From Ruminococcus bicirculans (ex Wegman et al. 2014) (GTDB lineage: Bacteria > Bacillota > Clostridia > Oscillospirales > Ruminococcaceae): a stretch of 64,000 bases of DNA. The notes beneath the pieces were generated by a model that saw only the letters and a list, made by a program, of their open reading frames with translations, made no database searches and was not told where the DNA came from. The translations under genes were made by a program, and so were the position numbers. Positions within the stretch are counted from its first letter, which is position 1. Each line of letters begins with the position of its first letter. This document shows, piece after piece, positions 6,017-14,238 of this stretch. The stretch covers positions 310,001 through 374,000 of the forward strand of contig NZ_HF545617.1 in the NCBI RefSeq assembly GCF_000723465.1, in the 5' to 3' direction.

Positions 6017-7999
6017 ATGGCAAATAAAAAGGAATATACAAATGAAGATATAGTATCTCTTAAGGGGGAGGACAGAGTAAGAAAGCGTCCTGCGGTAATA
6101 TTCGGCTCTGACGGACTTGAGGGCTGTAAACATTCTGTTTTTGAAATTCTTTCAAACTCTATAGACGAGGCTCGTGACGGTCATGGCGATAAGATAATCG
6201 TTACAAAGTACAATGACGATTCTATCGAGGTGGAAGACTTCGGACGTGGTTGTCCTGTTGACTATAACCAGCGTGAGAAAAAATATAACTGGGAGCTTGT
6301 TTACTGCGAGCTTTATGCAGGTGGCAAGTATAATAATAACAGCGGAGATAACTATGAATATTCGTTGGGCCTTAACGGACTGGGTGCTTGTGCGACGCAG
6401 TATTCATCTGAGTTTATGGACGTCGAGGTTTTCCGTGACGGATATAAGTATGACCTGCACTTTGAAAAGGGAAGAAACGTTGGTGGTCTTAAAAAGGAAG
6501 AAACAAAGCAGAAAAAGACAGGTACAAAGACACATTGGCGACCTGACCTTGAAGTTTTCACTGATATAAAAATTGAGAACGAATATTTTGAGGACGTTCT
6601 GAAAAAGCAGGCTGTAGTAAACCCTAATATCACATTTATCCTGCGTATACAGCGTGAGAACAATTCTTTTGAAGAAAAGACGTTCTATTATGAGAATGGT
6701 ATCGCCGATTATGTTGCAGAGATAGCAGGTGAAAAGCCTCTGACCTCGGTGCAGTTTTTCACAGGCGACCGCAAGGGTCGTGACCGTGAGGACAAGGACG
6801 ATTACAAGGTAAAGCTTTCTGTGGCATTCACTTTCTCTAATCAGGTAAAATGTCTTGAATATTATCACAATTCAAGTTTTCTGGAACATGGTGGCTCACC
6901 GGAGGACGCAGTAAAGAGTGCTTTCACATCTCAGATAAATGCTTATCTCAAAAGCAACAATAAGTATCTGAAAAACGAAAAGCCTATTACTTTTCAGGAT
7001 ATCGAGGATTGCTTGGTGCTTGTTTCAAGTTCTTTTTCTACACAGACTTCATATGCCAATCAGACAAAGAAAGCTATCACAAACAAGTTTATCAAGGAGT
7101 GCATGACAGAGTTCTTGAAGCACAATCTCGAGATATACTTTATTGAAAATCCTGACGAAGCGGTGAAGATAGCCGAGCAGGTTCTTGTAAACAAGAGAAG
7201 CCGTGAAAAGGCTGAGAAGTCAAGAATAGACCTGAAGAAAAAGCTTGCAGGCTCTATCGACCTTTCAAATCAGGTGCAGAAATTCGTTGACTGCCGTTCA
7301 AAAGACCTTTCTCAGCGTGAGCTTTATATCGTGGAGGGCGACTCGGCGCTCGGTTCTGTAAAAATGGCAAGAAATGCAGAGTTTCAGGCTGTTATCCCTG
7401 TAAGAGGAAAGATACTCAACTGTCTGAAAGCTGACTATGATAAGATTTTCAAGAATGAGATAATCACAGATCTTATAAAAGTCATAGGCTGCGGAGTTGA
7501 GGTCAAGACGGGCAAGAACAAGGAGATATCTATGTTCAATCTCGACAACCTTCGCTGGAACAAGATAGTTATTTGTACTGATGCCGATGTTGACGGCTTC
7601 CATATCAGAACGCTTATACTCACAATGCTTTACAGACTTGTGCCGACCCTTATTGAAAAAGGATATGTTTATATTGCGGAGTCACCGCTCTTTGAGATAA
7701 CGACTTCCGACAAGACTTACTTTGCATATGACGAGAACGAAAAGACAAAGATACTCAAAATGATAGGCAATAAAAAGTTTGATATCCAGCGTTCAAAAGG
7801 TCTTGGCGAGAACGAGGCGGAGATGATGAGCCTTACGACAATGGACCCTGCCACAAGACGTCTTATAAAGATAGAGCCTGACGATATCGAGCAGACACAA
7901 TGGATGTTCGATATGCTCTTGGGTGACGATCTGCAGGGAAGAAAAGATTTCATCACCAATAATGGTGTTGATTATCTTGATATGGCGGATATTTCATAA
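6017..7999 (+). CDS. parE: Type IIA topoisomerase ATPase/TOPRIM subunit (ParE/GyrB-like)
   Basis: This 660-residue subunit hydrolyses ATP to drive DNA strand passage. The GHKL ATPase shows EILSNSIDEA, the VEDFGRGCPVD loop and SLGLNGLGACAT. The TOPRIM domain shows YIVEGDSALGS and CTDADVDGFHI, and the C-terminal RSKGLGENEAEMM matches the family. It is clearly diverged from canonical GyrB (for example RPAVIFGSDGLEGCKHSV at the N-terminus), so it is more likely a topoisomerase IV or a second enzyme than the main gyrase. The partner subunit starts 42 bases downstream. The gene symbol is by role; gyrB cannot be fully excluded. Confidence 0.88.
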   Translation: MANKKEYTNEDIVSLKGEDRVRKRPAVIFGSDGLEGCKHSVFEILSNSIDEARDGHGDKIIVTKYNDDSIEVEDFGRGCPVDYNQREKKYNWELVYCELYAGGKYNNNSGDNYEYSLGLNGLGACATQYSSEFMDVEVFRDGYKYDLHFEKGRNVGGLKKEETKQKKTGTKTHWRPDLEVFTDIKIENEYFEDVLKKQAVVNPNITFILRIQRENNSFEEKTFYYENGIADYVAEIAGEKPLTSVQFFTGDRKGRDREDKDDYKVKLSVAFTFSNQVKCLEYYHNSSFLEHGGSPEDAVKSAFTSQINAYLKSNNKYLKNEKPITFQDIEDCLVLVSSSFSTQTSYANQTKKAITNKFIKECMTEFLKHNLEIYFIENPDEAVKIAEQVLVNKRSREKAEKSRIDLKKKLAGSIDLSNQVQKFVDCRSKDLSQRELYIVEGDSALGSVKMARNAEFQAVIPVRGKILNCLKADYDKIFKNEIITDLIKVIGCGVEVKTGKNKEISMFNLDNLRWNKIVICTDADVDGFHIRTLILTMLYRLVPTLIEKGYVYIAESPLFEITTSDKTYFAYDENEKTKILKMIGNKKFDIQRSKGLGENEAEMMSLTTMDPATRRLIKIEPDDIEQTQWMFDMLLGDDLQGRKDFITNNGVDYLDMADIS

Positions 8000-8041
8000 T
8001 TTGCATCTGAAAATATATTCGGCGCAGAAAGGATAGATTTT

Positions 8042-10279
8042 ATGGCAAGAAAAAAGGCAGAGCCTAAAAAGACTGCTAAACCAAATAACAACGCATATAT
8101 CGAGGGTGCAGGACTTGTTGCAGATGAAAAGATAACAATGTCTCTTGAAAAGAACTATATGCCATATGCCATGAGCGTTTTGGTATCAAGAGCGTTCCCT
8201 GAGATAGACGGCTTTAAGCCCTCACACAGAAAACTGCTTTATACCATGTATAAAATGGGACTTTTAAACGGAAAGCTCACAAAGTCTGCCAATATCGTTG
8301 GTGCGACCATGAGGCTCAATCCTCACGGCGACGGTGCTATATATGAAACCATGGTAAGACTTTCACAGGGCAATGAAGCACTTTTGCACCCATATGTAAT
8401 GAGTAAGGGAAACTTCGGTAAGGCATATTCAAGAGATATGGCGTATGCTGCCTCTCGATACACTGAGGCAAAGCTCATGCCTATCTGTCAGGAGCTTTTC
8501 GGAGATATAGATAAGGACACTGTGGATTTTGTTCCTAACTATGATAACACCACCACAGAGCCGACCTTGCTTCCTGCTACTTACCCGTCAATACTTGTTA
8601 ATGCAAACGTTGGTATAGGCGTTTCTATGGCTTCATCAGTTTGTCCGTTCAACCTTAGCGAGGTTTGTGAGACAACTATCGGACTTATGAAAAATCCTGA
8701 TTTCAACGCTCTTGAAACGCTGAAAGGACCTGACTTTCCGGGCGGTGCTTCACTTCTCTATGATGAGGAGGAGCTTGATAAGATATACCGCACAGGAAAA
8801 GGCTCTGTTAAGCTGAGAGCAAAATATCAGTATGACAAGGAGTCAAGGTGTCTTGAAATCGTTGAGATACCTGCCACTACCACAGTTGAAGCAATAATCG
8901 AGAAGATAATTGCTCTCGTTAAGGCAGGCAAGATAAGAGAGGTATCATATATCCGTGATGAAACGGACATTAACGGTCTGAAAATAGGTATAGATATCAA
9001 AAAGGGCGTAGACCCTGATAAGCTTATGCAAAAGCTTTATAAGCTGACGCCGCTTCAGGACTCATATTCATGCAATTTCTATATACTTGTTCACGGCTAT
9101 CCAAGAATAATGGGCGTTTATGATATAATTAAAGAATGGGTAGCGTTCAGAATGGACTGCGTTCGCCGTAGGACAAGCTTTGACCTTGCTAAAAAGAAAG
9201 ACAAGCTGCATCTGCTGAAAGGTCTTGGAAAAATACTTCTCGATATCGACAAGGCTATAAAGATAATCAGAGAAACGGAAGAAGAAACAGAGGTCGTTCC
9301 TAACCTTATGGTTGGATTCGGCATTGACGAGATACAGGCAGATTATGTTGCTGAAATAAAGCTCAGACACCTTAACCGTGAGTATATCCTCAAAAGAACT
9401 GCCGAAACTGAAGATCTTGAAAAAGCTATTGCAGAGCTTGAAGATATTCTTGGAAGCGACAGAAAAATAAAGAATATCATCATTTCCGAATTAAAGGAAG
9501 TTTCAAAGAAGTATGGTCAGCCAAGAAAAACTCAGTTCTATTATAAGACTGATATCGAGGAGATAGACATAGAGGACGATATTCTTGACTACGCCTGCAA
9601 GCTTTTCCTATCTCAAAGCGGTTATTTCAAGAAATGTACTCCGCAATCACTGAGAATGGCAAGCGAGCAGAAGTATAAAGAGGGCGACGGTCCGCTTCAG
9701 GAAATGGAAAGCACCAACAAAACGGAGCTTCTGTTCTTCTCAGACAAGGCGGCTGTGTATAAGACCAAGGTATCGCAGTTTGCCGACACAAAGGCAAGCT
9801 CTCTTGGTGACTATATTCCTGCAAAGCTTGGTTTTGATGACGGTGAGGGCGTTGTGTCCATGGTGAATACTGTAGATTATTCGGGCTATATGATATTCTG
9901 TTTTGAAAACGGAAAGGTGGCAAAAGTGCCGCTCAATGCCTATGAAACAAAGACCAACAGAAAGAAGCTTGCCAACGCTTATTCTGCAAAGGCTAAGCTT
10001 GTGGGAATGTTCTTTGTGCAGGATAACGCTGAGATAATGCTTCGCACAACTAACGGCAGAGCAATGATATTTGATACAGCGCTTCTTATGCCTAAGTCCA
10101 CGAGAGATACTATAGGCGTTCAGGTCATGACACTTAAAGCGAAGAATGCAGTTGTTGATAAGGCGTTTATCGTTGACGATGAGACAGCAGCAGGCCTTTC
10201 AAAATATCGCAGCAAAACGATACCTGTTGCAGGCTGTTTTGCAAAGGATATCGAAGACCCTGACCAGATGCACTTCTGA
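8042..10279 (+). CDS. parC: Type IIA topoisomerase cleavage subunit (ParC/GyrA-like)
   Basis: This 745-residue subunit carries the DNA-cleaving tyrosine in the segment AASRYTEAKLMP. The segment preceding it, SANIVGATMRLNPHGDGAIY, aligns with the helix that contains the quinolone-determining residues. There HGDGAIYET has glycine where E. coli GyrA has Ser83 and glutamate where it has Asp87. No GyrA-box motif (QRRGGKG) is visible in the C-terminal domain, which favours a decatenating topoisomerase IV role over negative supercoiling. It is in an operon with the ParE-like subunit, with AGAAAGGAT upstream of the ATG. Confidence 0.88.
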   Translation: MARKKAEPKKTAKPNNNAYIEGAGLVADEKITMSLEKNYMPYAMSVLVSRAFPEIDGFKPSHRKLLYTMYKMGLLNGKLTKSANIVGATMRLNPHGDGAIYETMVRLSQGNEALLHPYVMSKGNFGKAYSRDMAYAASRYTEAKLMPICQELFGDIDKDTVDFVPNYDNTTTEPTLLPATYPSILVNANVGIGVSMASSVCPFNLSEVCETTIGLMKNPDFNALETLKGPDFPGGASLLYDEEELDKIYRTGKGSVKLRAKYQYDKESRCLEIVEIPATTTVEAIIEKIIALVKAGKIREVSYIRDETDINGLKIGIDIKKGVDPDKLMQKLYKLTPLQDSYSCNFYILVHGYPRIMGVYDIIKEWVAFRMDCVRRRTSFDLAKKKDKLHLLKGLGKILLDIDKAIKIIRETEEETEVVPNLMVGFGIDEIQADYVAEIKLRHLNREYILKRTAETEDLEKAIAELEDILGSDRKIKNIIISELKEVSKKYGQPRKTQFYYKTDIEEIDIEDDILDYACKLFLSQSGYFKKCTPQSLRMASEQKYKEGDGPLQEMESTNKTELLFFSDKAAVYKTKVSQFADTKASSLGDYIPAKLGFDDGEGVVSMVNTVDYSGYMIFCFENGKVAKVPLNAYETKTNRKKLANAYSAKAKLVGMFFVQDNAEIMLRTTNGRAMIFDTALLMPKSTRDTIGVQVMTLKAKNAVVDKAFIVDDETAAGLSKYRSKTIPVAGCFAKDIEDPDQMHF

Positions 10280-10408: not shown

Positions 10409-11191
10409 ATGGAGTGTCCTAAATGCCACAAGTCAGTTGACGATGATGACATTTTCTGTCCTAACTGTGACACAAGATTAAGACCAGACAAAAATACATC
10501 TATCATGAAGCGTTTCAAAAAGCAGAATAAACCGCTAAATGTGGAAATAGTGGGCGAGAAAAAACATAAATTGTCTGAAAGCAAGCTCAAGCTTATTCTT
10601 ATAACAGTGGCGGTAGTGCTTCTTGTGGTGCTTGTCGTCCTTATCGTTGTGAATATTATAAGCGGAAAGGGTGAAAACACCGCTGAGAGCATTTCTGAAT
10701 ATATCGGCGTAGATGTTGCAAAGGCTCAGAAAAAGCTTGATATGCACTTTAAGGACGAATCGGCTTTTCAGGGAGTGAACAATGCACTGAATTTTGATTA
10801 TATCATTGAGTCTGATGACAGTGTTAATGTTGATGGCATAAATTATCCTGAATGGGCGGCACTTGTTACTGTTGATGATGAAGAACGTATACAAACTGTA
10901 AAATATTCAAATTTCAAGGTGCTTAAAAACAATGCAAACGGTGAAAAAAAGAGTAAAGCTATCAACCTTGATAAGTTTGAACAAGGAGCAAAGTGGAGTG
11001 GCTTGTCAGATGCCATAGACCTTGAATATTACGGCATCATATGGTCAAAAGACACTAAAAATTATATATACCGCTATTGGTATGAGAATGACGCAGGTGA
11101 TGATCAGCCTGTGGTGCTTAATGTAACGTTCGATACGGATAATAAGTATCTGTATTATTCTTCTACGCTTATTTATCCTGAGTATCTGTAA
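10409..11191 (+). CDS. Zinc-ribbon single-pass membrane protein
   Basis: This 260-residue protein opens with a zinc ribbon, MECPKCHKSV...FCPNCDTRL (CxxC-x12-CxxC). A basic linker and one membrane helix (LILITVAVVLLVVLVVLIVV) follow, then an extracellular domain of about 150 residues. The start at 10409 is chosen because AAGGGAG precedes it and the promoter and terminator lie upstream; longer readings are not plausible. Zinc-ribbon plus helix proteins of this layout are frequent in Clostridia and usually unassigned. It precedes a zinc-ribbon pseudokinase of similar topology, which suggests a functional link. Confidence 0.8.
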   Translation: MECPKCHKSVDDDDIFCPNCDTRLRPDKNTSIMKRFKKQNKPLNVEIVGEKKHKLSESKLKLILITVAVVLLVVLVVLIVVNIISGKGENTAESISEYIGVDVAKAQKKLDMHFKDESAFQGVNNALNFDYIIESDDSVNVDGINYPEWAALVTVDDEERIQTVKYSNFKVLKNNANGEKKSKAINLDKFEQGAKWSGLSDAIDLEYYGIIWSKDTKNYIYRYWYENDAGDDQPVVLNVTFDTDNKYLYYSSTLIYPEYL

Positions 11192-11257: not shown

Positions 11258-11286
11258 TTGACTTATGCTCGGTTTGTTGCTAATAT
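11258..11286 (+). promoter_or_regulatory. Promoter of the pseudokinase gene
   Basis: TTGACT (11258-11263), 17 bases, TAATAT (11281-11286), about 34 bases before the start codon at 11320. Confidence 0.65.
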
Positions 11287-11319
11287 AAATTGATGAATAA
11301 CGTAAAAAGGAGGTTCGGT

Positions 11320-13146
11320 ATGGATCCTAGTACTAAATTATGTATGGGCTGTATGAACGAACTTGGTTCTGACGGTCGCTGTCATTATTGTAGCTATACC
11401 GACGATATCCCGCATTTACAGGCTTATCTTGCACCGAGAACAGTGCTTGACAACAGATATATAGTCGGAAAAATGCTTTCATATAATGGTGAGGGTGCGT
11501 CTTACATTTGCTACGATATGGTTGGCAAATGTAAGTGTGTGGCAAGAGAGTATATGCCTGACACTCTTTGCGAAAGAGACAGCGAAAGTCAGCGACTTGT
11601 GGTGAACCCAGATTGTCTGGCTAAGTATAAGACATTTATGTCTGAGTTTGCAGACGTGAACAAAGTTCTTTCACGCATGAGAAATCTTCAGCATATCGCC
11701 ACGGCAAAGGATATGTTTTGCGAGAATAATACGACCTATGTCATACTCGAATATGTGGAGGGCGTGACGCTAAAGAAATTTTTACAGTCAAATACAGGCT
11801 TTCTCACATGGGAACAGGTCAAAAAGCTTTTTGTGCCATTGTTTACAACATTGAGCATTATACATAATGCAGGTATCATACACAGGGGAATATCTCCTGA
11901 AAATATTATTGTTACAACTGATTGTGAGCTTAAACTTACAGGCTTTTGCATAAGTTCTATAAGAACATCTAATACAGGGCTTTCTCCTGAGTTCTATTCA
12001 GGATATACCGCTCCTGAGCAATATTCTTCGTTAGAATGGCAGGGCACATGGACTGACGTTTATGCACTTGCTGCAGTTCTTTATAGAATACTAACAGGCT
12101 GTATGCCCCTTGACGCTTATACACGTACAAAGAATGATACTATGGTCGAAGCTTGCAGAGTCAATCCGAGAATACCACAGCATATCTCACGAGTTCTTTC
12201 AAGAGCTATGAGAGTTCGTGGCGAAGAAAGAATACAGACAGTTTCAGAGCTTGTTACTGCACTTTTTGAGCAGCATACAACGCATATGGAACACCCTAAG
12301 GGTTCAACTCAGACTATTCCTATACAGCATGTTCCAAGACAAAGAACGCAGTCAAGGCAAATGCCACAGCAGACTCGTGAGGAAGAAAAGCCTAAGAATA
12401 AAACGGCTACGATAATAGGCTGGACTGTGCTTGTGATAGTGCTTTTGCTTTCAGTTTTTCTGCTATATGAGTTGTTTTCAGGTCCGTCGGACAGCAATAA
12501 TGATTCGTCTGAGGATAAGGTCATTTCTTCTGATGATGCAGATGGAGTTGACAGCGAGGTATTCGTTTACAGCACCACAGTTGCTACGCCTAAGGTGACT
12601 GATGCTGAAAGTCAGTCAGAATATGGCTATGGCGCTATAATGCCTAACGTTGTGGGTCTGGAATACAATACTGTTGTAAAACAGCTTGGTGAGGATTTTA
12701 CTATCAAGGCTGAATATTATTATTCTGATGTTGACGATAAGGACGTTGTTAAAGAGCAGAGCATACCAGAGGGTACTGATTTTGATCCGTCTTTGAAAAA
12801 TGAGCTTGTTCTTAAAGTATGTGCAGGTCCTGAAAATGTTTCTGTTCCTGATTTCTCTGGTCTGTCAAAGAAGGCTTACCTTGAGCTACTTGATTCTTAT
12901 AATATCAAGTATAAGGTCGTTACCGATTTCTCAAGCTCTGTTTCTGCAGGATATGTTATGGCGACGAGCGTTAATGTTGGAAACACTGTGAATGTTAAAA
13001 ATGGTGATGTGCTTACAGTTACAGTTTCCGCAGGTCTTGTGACTACTACGACCACTACAACAAAGGCAACAGAGCCTAAGCCTGATACGAACACAGGCAG
13101 CTCTTCTGAAACAACACCAGCTCCGGCTGTTGTGCCTGCTGAATAA
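11320..13146 (+). CDS. Zinc-ribbon/PASTA Ser/Thr kinase homologue, predicted pseudokinase
   Basis: This 608-residue protein has a zinc ribbon (C8, C11, C21, C24), a kinase fold at about 45-315, a membrane helix at about 361-385 and two PASTA domains at about 439-502 and 505-572. It ends in a Thr-rich tail. The usual VAIK lysine is arginine (VAREY, R76), the HRD aspartate is glycine (IIHRGISPEN, G190) and DFG reads GFC (208-210). APE (231-233) and the asparagine of the catalytic loop are kept. PASTA kinases sense muropeptides and control wall synthesis; this one should bind but not phosphorylate. The start is the ATG after AAGGAGG. Confidence 0.87.
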   Translation: MDPSTKLCMGCMNELGSDGRCHYCSYTDDIPHLQAYLAPRTVLDNRYIVGKMLSYNGEGASYICYDMVGKCKCVAREYMPDTLCERDSESQRLVVNPDCLAKYKTFMSEFADVNKVLSRMRNLQHIATAKDMFCENNTTYVILEYVEGVTLKKFLQSNTGFLTWEQVKKLFVPLFTTLSIIHNAGIIHRGISPENIIVTTDCELKLTGFCISSIRTSNTGLSPEFYSGYTAPEQYSSLEWQGTWTDVYALAAVLYRILTGCMPLDAYTRTKNDTMVEACRVNPRIPQHISRVLSRAMRVRGEERIQTVSELVTALFEQHTTHMEHPKGSTQTIPIQHVPRQRTQSRQMPQQTREEEKPKNKTATIIGWTVLVIVLLLSVFLLYELFSGPSDSNNDSSEDKVISSDDADGVDSEVFVYSTTVATPKVTDAESQSEYGYGAIMPNVVGLEYNTVVKQLGEDFTIKAEYYYSDVDDKDVVKEQSIPEGTDFDPSLKNELVLKVCAGPENVSVPDFSGLSKKAYLELLDSYNIKYKVVTDFSSSVSAGYVMATSVNVGNTVNVKNGDVLTVTVSAGLVTTTTTTTKATEPKPDTNTGSSSETTPAPAVVPAE

Positions 13147-13186: not shown

Positions 13187-13215
13187 TTGACAATTCAGGG
13201 GCTTTGTGCTATGCT
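13187..13215 (+). promoter_or_regulatory. Promoter of pfkA
   Basis: TTGACA (13187-13192), 17 bases, TATGCT (13210-13215). The -35 lies in the loop of an inverted repeat AAAGCCC/GGGCTTT that may also act as a weak terminator for the upstream gene. Confidence 0.7.
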
Positions 13216-13275
13216 CATTATAGATTATTAGGAAAGTAACAGGATAAATTGTTTCCTGGTTTGGAGGTATTTTAC

Positions 13276-14238
13276 ATGGCTAAGAAAATTGGTGTACTTA
13301 CCAGCGGAGGAGATGCTCCGGGAATGAACGCTGCTGTCAGAGCAGTATGCAGAGCTGGTCTTGCAAAGGGTATGGAAGTCGTAGGTATCCTCAGAGGATA
13401 TAACGGTCTTCTTAATGGTGAAGTTATTGAGATGAATGCAAGAACTGTTTCTGGCATAATCCAGAGAGGCGGTACTTGTCTTTATACTGCAAGATGTCCT
13501 GAATTCAGAGATATCGAGGGCGTAAAGAAGGGCAGAGATAAGTGTCTTGAAATGGGCCTTGACGGTATCGTAGTTATCGGTGGTGACGGCTCATTCAGAG
13601 GTGCGGCTGATCTTTCAGCACAGGGTATCCCATGTATCGGTCTGCCTGGTACTATAGACAACGATATTTCATGCACAGAATATACTATCGGTTATGACAC
13701 AGCTATGAACACGGCTATGGAAATGATCGATAAGATCAGAGATACAGCACAGTCACATGACAGATGTTCAGTAGTTGAGGTAATGGGCAGAAACGCTGGT
13801 CACATTGCTATCAACGTTGCTGCTGCTGTAGGCGCTGAGGCTGTTATCACACCTGAGAAGCCTTATGACCTCAATGCTATTGCTCAGAAGATGGAGCAGA
13901 CAAAGAAGTCAGGCAAGACACATTTTATCATTGTAGTTGCTGAGGGTGTTGGCAAGACAGAGTATATCACAAGAACTCTTCAGGATATTACTGGTGTCGA
14001 GTCAAGAGCTACTATTCTCGGTCATGTTCAGAGAGGCGGCTCTCCTACAGTAAGAGATAGAGTTGTCGCAACTGAAATGGGCTATCACGCTGTTGAACTG
14101 CTCGAGCAGGGCATTGGCAACAGAGTTGTTGGTATGAAGGACAACAAGATATATGATGTAGATATTCAGGAGGCTCTTTCAATGAAGAAGCCTTTCGAGG
14201 AAGAGCTTTACAAGATCCTCAATGAAACTGCATTCTAA
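13276..14238 (+). CDS. pfkA: ATP-dependent 6-phosphofructokinase
   Basis: This enzyme phosphorylates fructose 6-phosphate to the 1,6-bisphosphate, the committed step of glycolysis. It has 320 residues, the normal bacterial length. Visible motifs are LTSGGDAPGMNA at the N-terminus, GGDGSFRGA (the G-D-G-S form of ATP-using enzymes rather than PPi-using ones) and the catalytic LPGTIDNDI. The start at 13276 is preceded by TTTGGAGG; an upstream in-frame ATG at 13249 lacks a site. It appears to be transcribed alone. Confidence 0.95.
   Translation: MAKKIGVLTSGGDAPGMNAAVRAVCRAGLAKGMEVVGILRGYNGLLNGEVIEMNARTVSGIIQRGGTCLYTARCPEFRDIEGVKKGRDKCLEMGLDGIVVIGGDGSFRGAADLSAQGIPCIGLPGTIDNDISCTEYTIGYDTAMNTAMEMIDKIRDTAQSHDRCSVVEVMGRNAGHIAINVAAAVGAEAVITPEKPYDLNAIAQKMEQTKKSGKTHFIIVVAEGVGKTEYITRTLQDITGVESRATILGHVQRGGSPTVRDRVVATEMGYHAVELLEQGIGNRVVGMKDNKIYDVDIQEALSMKKPFEEELYKILNETAF

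Follow-up and report, generated by a model that had tools for sequence, protein, structure and literature searches.

The question raised by this locus is what role may be left for a membrane-anchored protein of the kinase fold once its catalytic signatures have gone. The window, i.e., the whole stretch of 64,000 nucleotides of the Ruminococcus bicirculans contig NZ_HF545617.1 analysed here (positions 310,001 to 374,000), encodes such a protein of 608 amino acids, in which a zinc ribbon, a kinase-like domain, a membrane helix and a pair of PASTA domains follow one another (Table 1). The original prediction, made from the letters and the reading frames, had assigned to it a binding-only role, perhaps as an allosteric partner of an active PASTA kinase.

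Table 1. Features of the pseudokinase locus (positions in the window).
Feature	Position	Strand	Basis
Zinc ribbon-TM-extracytoplasmic protein, possible functional neighbour, upstream of the pseudokinase	10409..11191	+	
Promoter-like TTGACT-17-TAATAT, just 5' of the pseudokinase gene	11258..11286	+	Consensus match only
Shine-Dalgarno AAGGAGG (perfect), 5' of the ATG at 11320	11307..11313	+	Read in sequence
Zinc ribbon-pseudokinase-TM-PASTA protein, 608 aa	11320..13146	+	Open frame, Pfam, AlphaFold model
Zinc ribbon Cys8-x2-Cys11 ... Cys21-x2-Cys24	11341..11391	+	Cys conservation among relatives
Kinase-like domain, about residues 43-318	11446..12273	+	Pfam, AlphaFold, Foldseek
Degraded Gly-rich loop SYNGEGASY, residues 54-62	11479..11505	+	Alignment with relatives
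VAIK Lys to Arg76	11545..11547	+	Alignment with intact siblings
AlphaC Glu to Val113	11656..11658	+	Alignment with intact siblings
HRD Asp to Gly190	11887..11889	+	Alignment with intact siblings
DFG to Gly208-Phe209-Cys210	11941..11949	+	Alignment with intact siblings
Membrane helix, residues 361-386	12400..12477	+	AlphaFold model
Two PASTA domains, about residues 438-570	12631..13029	+	Pfam, AlphaFold model
Promoter-like site of pfkA	13187-13215	+	Consensus match
pfkA frame, next gene 3' of the pseudokinase	13249..14238	+	Locus comparison, Pfam

Domain plan and catalytic positions

Kinase similarity of the protein is clear from Pfam (85.1 bits for Pkinase against a cut-off of 31.7), which also calls two PASTA stretches; the general scan of the 608 residues matched four families with no EssB/YukC name among them and did not call the zinc ribbon. 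The AlphaFold model, based on 63 aligned proteins, contains the kinase-like domain, the helix and both PASTA domains (mean pLDDT 83, with 419 of 608 residues at 90 or above), and together with Pfam confirms the proposal that fold, membrane helix and PASTA pair have been kept. Foldseek returned at least 2000 chains for the kinase fold at E <= 0.001, with PpkA as the best match followed by PknB-type kinases. PADLOC matches to defence kinases were read as generic kinase similarity.

Relatives were collected by a profile search over the order, in which 107 of 394 genomes matched at E <= 1e-40, and by a pattern scan of named genomes, from which at least 583 confirmed stretches were obtained and the best 80 kept as loci. 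Motifs were read in 110 of the profile matches listed (30 plus 80 loci), to which the 80 loci from named genomes and earlier loci were added; lower-ranked, unlisted or unfetched matches, G193 with E of 1.7e-50 among them, were left out and second copies of places already included were skipped. The pattern used for part of this sampling was H[RG]G, so that Gly at the HRD position is favoured in that part. The resulting domain set of 248 rows was reduced to 225 by removal of 8 rows with fewer than 240 of the 316 columns and merging of 15 identical ones, and, with a different kinase-like protein (L044_m_3299) left out, it comprises 178 pseudokinase relatives and 46 active siblings. Since these two classes were assigned by the HRD Asp alone, its count is true by definition, and the weight lies on the other positions dividing the rows in the same way and on the coincidence of this division with a single branch of the tree.

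Alignment with the intact siblings bears out the three substitutions initially noticed, i.e., R76 for the Lys of VAIK, G190 for the Asp of HRD, and G208-F209-C210 for DFG, and adds two further losses, those of the alphaC Glu (V113) and of the Gly-rich loop, which reads SYNGEGASY with an acidic tip versus GxGGFGxTY in active siblings. All 46 siblings possessing the HRD Asp also have Lys, Glu, Asn, DFG and all three Gly of the loop. Among the 178 relatives without this Asp, its position is taken by Gly in 144 and by Ala in 32, the alphaC Glu is found in none, the DFG Asp is gone in 157 and kept in 21, and the beta3 residue is Arg in 124 and Lys in 46 (basic in 170). The residue at loop position 58 is acidic in all but three of them (175) and Phe in each of the 46 active siblings, the activation-segment Arg R215 is conserved at 94%, and 78 relatives retain the Asn of the catalytic loop. 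By sequence criteria, therefore, the window protein is a pseudokinase, combining the kinase fold with the loss of the VAIK Lys, the HRD Asp and the DFG Asp.

The residues that persist leave some room for nucleotides: in view of the Lys, Asn and DFG Asp kept by part of the relatives, some members of the family may bind them weakly. A stronger version of this idea, that the domain is an enzyme of another kind using nucleotide non-canonically in the manner of SelO or SidJ, could draw on the retained fold, the basic residue of beta3 in 170 relatives and the catalytic-loop Asn of 78 relatives, but it has to face the complete loss of the alphaC Glu, the absence of the DFG Asp from 157 of 178 members and the acidic tip of the Gly-rich loop in 175, and we consider it improbable.

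Exactly one transmembrane segment was predicted by hydropathy in each of the 175 complete family members, and PASTA domains were found in 62 of 63 family proteins scanned, the window protein included (41 of 42 in a second scan). The ribbon cysteines C8, C11, C21 and C24 are present in all 176 pseudokinase relatives covering the region (2 of the 178 do not cover it). The same four cysteines occur in 46 of 46 active siblings, so the ribbon is ancestral and not, as had been supposed, a replacement of a free N-terminus.

Selection, age and descent of the catalytic loss

If the gene were a decaying paralogue, relaxed constraint would be expected in the domain that lost its catalytic motifs, the one feature speaking for such an explanation. 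For same-genus pairs, omega of the kinase-like domain falls between 0.006 and 0.032 (10 of 12 pairs computable), that of the PrkC kinase domain from the same genomes between 0.000 and 0.021 (12 of 12 pairs), and that of the linker 388-436 between 0.048 and 0.365 (9 of 12 pairs). Among the 10 matched pairs, 7 show a higher value for the dead domain than for PrkC, 1 the same value and 2 a lower one, the 12 pairs having been picked by hand and being not independent, with dS saturated in 2 and high in most. Judged against both PrkC and the linker, purifying selection on the dead domain is nearly as strong as on the active PrkC kinase domain. Decay is ruled out by these omega values, and the frame is moreover open in 26 of 28 other genomes of the genus, as well as in family relatives, and belongs to one old clade; this explanation can hardly be entertained.

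The catalytic loss is likewise no recent accident. HRG and a lost DFG were found in 26 of 26 other same-genus orthologues and Arg at beta3 in all 25 that cover it; orthologues with intact residues, which might have pointed to a late inactivation, were looked for among these 26 and none was seen, so that recent inactivation is ruled out and the loss is, as far as the motifs tell, old. The initially suggested selection for a role other than phosphotransfer is upheld by low omega, by the single clade and by the altered motifs of all 26 orthologues. Carriers in the sample belong to 46 genera from three families of one order (23, 22 and 1 genera in f1, f24 and f23, respectively), Ruminococcus flavefaciens ATCC 19208 (L261) being one of those named. 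From a class-wide search over 391 genomes, 16 loci outside the order were read, each from a different high-scoring genome; Lys, the alphaC Glu and the Asp residues of the catalytic loop and of DFG are retained in all 16, one of them reading HKD and DLG. The pseudokinase is missing from G009 and G011, along with the zinc-ribbon TM gene and the corresponding copy of pfkA, but at 90% and 70% completeness of these genomes a loss there would be hard to tell from incompleteness.

Phylogenetic reconstruction separated pseudokinases and active siblings (98 and 46 rows) by one branch with SH-aLRT of 100, and no member of the pseudokinase clade has the HRD Asp; the 98 rows were drawn from the 178 by thinning same-genus sequences and omitting loci found with the H[RG]G pattern. 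Support remained at 99 after removal of 48 motif columns. Rooting with PrkC, for which 43 of the 98 pseudokinase rows were used, nested the pseudokinases inside active zinc-ribbon kinases, 12 of which form the adjoining group (support 92). For the careful tree 65 rows were used, including 18 of these pseudokinase rows and omitting 5 of the 46 active ones; it recovered the pseudokinase clade at 100/100 and PrkC rows as a separate group at 100/100, and 6% of its bootstrap trees united the active kinases in a single clade. The pseudokinases stand there as sister to the 11 remaining rows of the group of 12 at 76/51, i.e., weakly. PASTA domains were found in all 9 scanned members of this nearest group (two to five copies; the other 3 have frames truncated at the edge of the locus), and these are the only nine among the 37 of 46 active siblings covered by the Pfam scan, where, with several frames cut by the edge, PASTA domains further along would be missed.

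Given the position of the clade inside active zinc-ribbon kinases and the PASTA domains of the nearest of them, a neighbourhood that is itself weakly supported, catalysis was probably lost once, in a zinc-ribbon kinase that already possessed PASTA domains, and the receptor plan was kept; this would also be the simplest history. The window protein thus belongs to what we name here the zinc-ribbon Ser/Thr kinase family of Clostridia, sharing with it both the N-terminal CxxC..CxxC and the clade. The PrkC/PknB-type origin implied at the outset did not survive the comparison: the closest relatives are zinc-ribbon kinases that are still active, PrkC forms a separate lineage, and the pseudokinase clade, judging by the trees, is not derived from PrkC/PknB.

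This descent also bears on the role first proposed for the protein, a dominant-negative or allosteric partner that pairs with PrkC via the kinase-like or PASTA domains and sets its activity. PASTA domains are indeed common to both proteins, each of the 21 genomes fetched for PrkC (chosen among matches of the pseudokinase search) contains it intact, and the pseudokinase domain of MviN pairs back to back in a way likened to canonical bacterial kinases in the section of a recent review devoted to it (PMC12599244). Against such a partnership stands the descent from zinc-ribbon kinases and not from PrkC, and the co-occurrence is weak evidence, since both genes are near-core in the genus. We rate regulation of PrkC as rather unlikely.

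Gene neighbourhood and proposed role

No adjacent gene is kept family-wide in the loci compared. Within the genus, all 11 loci compared have pfkA directly 3' of the pseudokinase, as against 0 of 9 loci from outside it; a common operon is unlikely, because pfkA has its own promoter-like site and the link is limited to Ruminococcus and near kin. On the other side, the zinc ribbon-TM gene at 10409-11191 encodes a protein present in its own genome and in 25 of 28 other genomes of the genus; in 12 of these 25 the two genes are far apart or on separate contigs. Its homologues were found in 18 of the 80 named loci; where the distance was counted (17 loci), the homologue lies one gene upstream of the pseudokinase in 12 and two genes upstream in 5. 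Distant Oscillospiraceae account for five of the 18, with other neighbours and with copies which, as read, have no ribbon Cys, and among 32 genomes outside the genus the match was clear only in G030 and very weak in G037. The outer domain, modelled at pLDDT of 84.7, weakly resembles BLIP (E of 0.006), with no structure match at E <= 0.001. As a candidate partner of the pseudokinase this protein is a lead, no more.

Several other genes deserve mention in their own right. The two genes preceding the zinc ribbon-TM gene (6017-10279 of the window) are GyrB/ParE-like and GyrA/ParC-like according to Pfam. Neighbouring active zinc-ribbon kinases are seen in relatives (L041, L042, L044, L048, and L049), bearing as a group PASTA, leucine-rich or other repeats; none of this kind is among the four Pkinase matches of the own genome. 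A further zinc-ribbon kinase-like protein, distinct from the present one but also without the motifs, is encoded on the minus strand of L044 (G005:C29:5711-6499), placed in a tandem array between two intact zinc-ribbon kinases. In L004 (1228-3141; G000:C2:492708-493166), a divergent kinase-like protein with GDLNPNN and VDTDS, which looks like a different family, is encoded behind a gene resembling a phosphatase.

In PknB-type kinases, the PASTA domains bind precursors of the cell wall. Taking the domain plan, selection and descent together, we favour as probable the reading of the window protein as a wall-sensing single-pass receptor pseudokinase which would signal by protein binding, without phosphotransfer. 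The extracytoplasmic PASTA pair would read a cell-wall ligand; ligand binding or pairing of receptors would alter the cytoplasmic kinase-like domain, and the latter would act on a cytoplasmic partner as a scaffold, either docking or allosteric, with no phosphate moved. A salt bridge might take the place of ATP and close the nucleotide pocket, with the acidic E58, the basic R76 and the Arg R215 as participants, which is our guess from their conservation. A broader generalization is put forward tentatively, as the less likely outcome: an ancient class of receptor pseudokinases, produced by one catalytic loss, with the pocket closed by an internal acidic residue, might act as nucleotide-free receptors across several families of Clostridia, possibly together with the neighbouring BLIP-like membrane protein in some of them. 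The pseudokinase is old and forms a single clade, its conservation in Ruminococcus and relatives is strong, and active siblings of the same plan survive; it thereby provides a clean natural experiment for studying how receptor kinases keep signalling once phosphotransfer is gone, and it is possibly a second wall-sensing branch beside PrkC.

Relation to known kinases and pseudokinases

Among solved structures the best match is PpkA (5hnv), with TM-score of 0.79 by target length and 24% identity; its HRD is intact in the alignment, unlike that of the window protein. PpkA is a kinase of type VI secretion. With the PASTA kinases PrkC, PknB and StkP the protein shares the cytoplasmic kinase fold, one transmembrane segment and extracytoplasmic PASTA domains, but it is devoid of catalytic residues, has the zinc ribbon and represents a separate lineage; its score of 155.9 bits with the model of Stk1 family PASTA kinases (NF033483) is below the cut-off of 450, which places it outside PrkC/PknB. 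Nearest in the PrkC-rooted trees are active PASTA zinc-ribbon Ser/Thr kinases of the same order (L041, L044 and L165, for example), having in common with it the ribbon, the kinase fold and the PASTA domains and differing by intact catalytic residues, further repeats, two to five PASTA copies and the length of 762-1098 aa as read, several of their frames running past the locus edge.

Bacterial pseudokinases have hardly been studied, according to a 2025 review which, in its family sections, lists seven families plus single cases (PMC12599244). No title or abstract start among the literature matches listed (open-licence papers) describes a family combining zinc ribbon, pseudokinase and PASTA. The main text of the review does not use the word "zinc" (0 occurrences) and has "PASTA" a single time, in a reference, and the family descriptions consulted there include neither a zinc ribbon-pseudokinase-TM-PASTA protein nor any PASTA receptor. 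Several of the families (ActPs1-3, GLW, CP1, DYD, and DLHK) are membrane-bound, and by these descriptions they differ from the window protein in group, motifs and domains (PMC12599244). ActPs2 shares with it the replacement of the beta3 Lys by Arg, but is described as having the HRD Asp changed to Asn, a DFG deletion in most members and an activation-loop extension of ~250 aa in ~90% of them, in contrast to HRG, GFC and the short activation segment found here. DYD pseudokinases, as characterized in the same account, combine Lys to Arg with the loss of the alphaC Glu, as the window protein does, but retain canonical HRD and/or DFG, both of which it has lost. NTP-dependent conflict systems also contain kinase domains whose catalytic residues are disrupted, described as akin to actinobacterial kinases with PASTA or beta-propeller fusions (PMC7159879); compared by description, these are parts of such systems, and the relevant passages contain no zinc ribbon-pseudokinase-TM-PASTA protein. 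Set apart by the descriptions available in the review, the window protein lies outside the bacterial pseudokinase families recognized there (PMC12599244). Also comparable is the pseudokinase domain of MviN from Mycobacterium, portrayed in the same source as a kinase-fold scaffold tied to the control of peptidoglycan, which resides within another membrane protein and for which the section concerned names neither zinc ribbon nor PASTA (PMC12599244).
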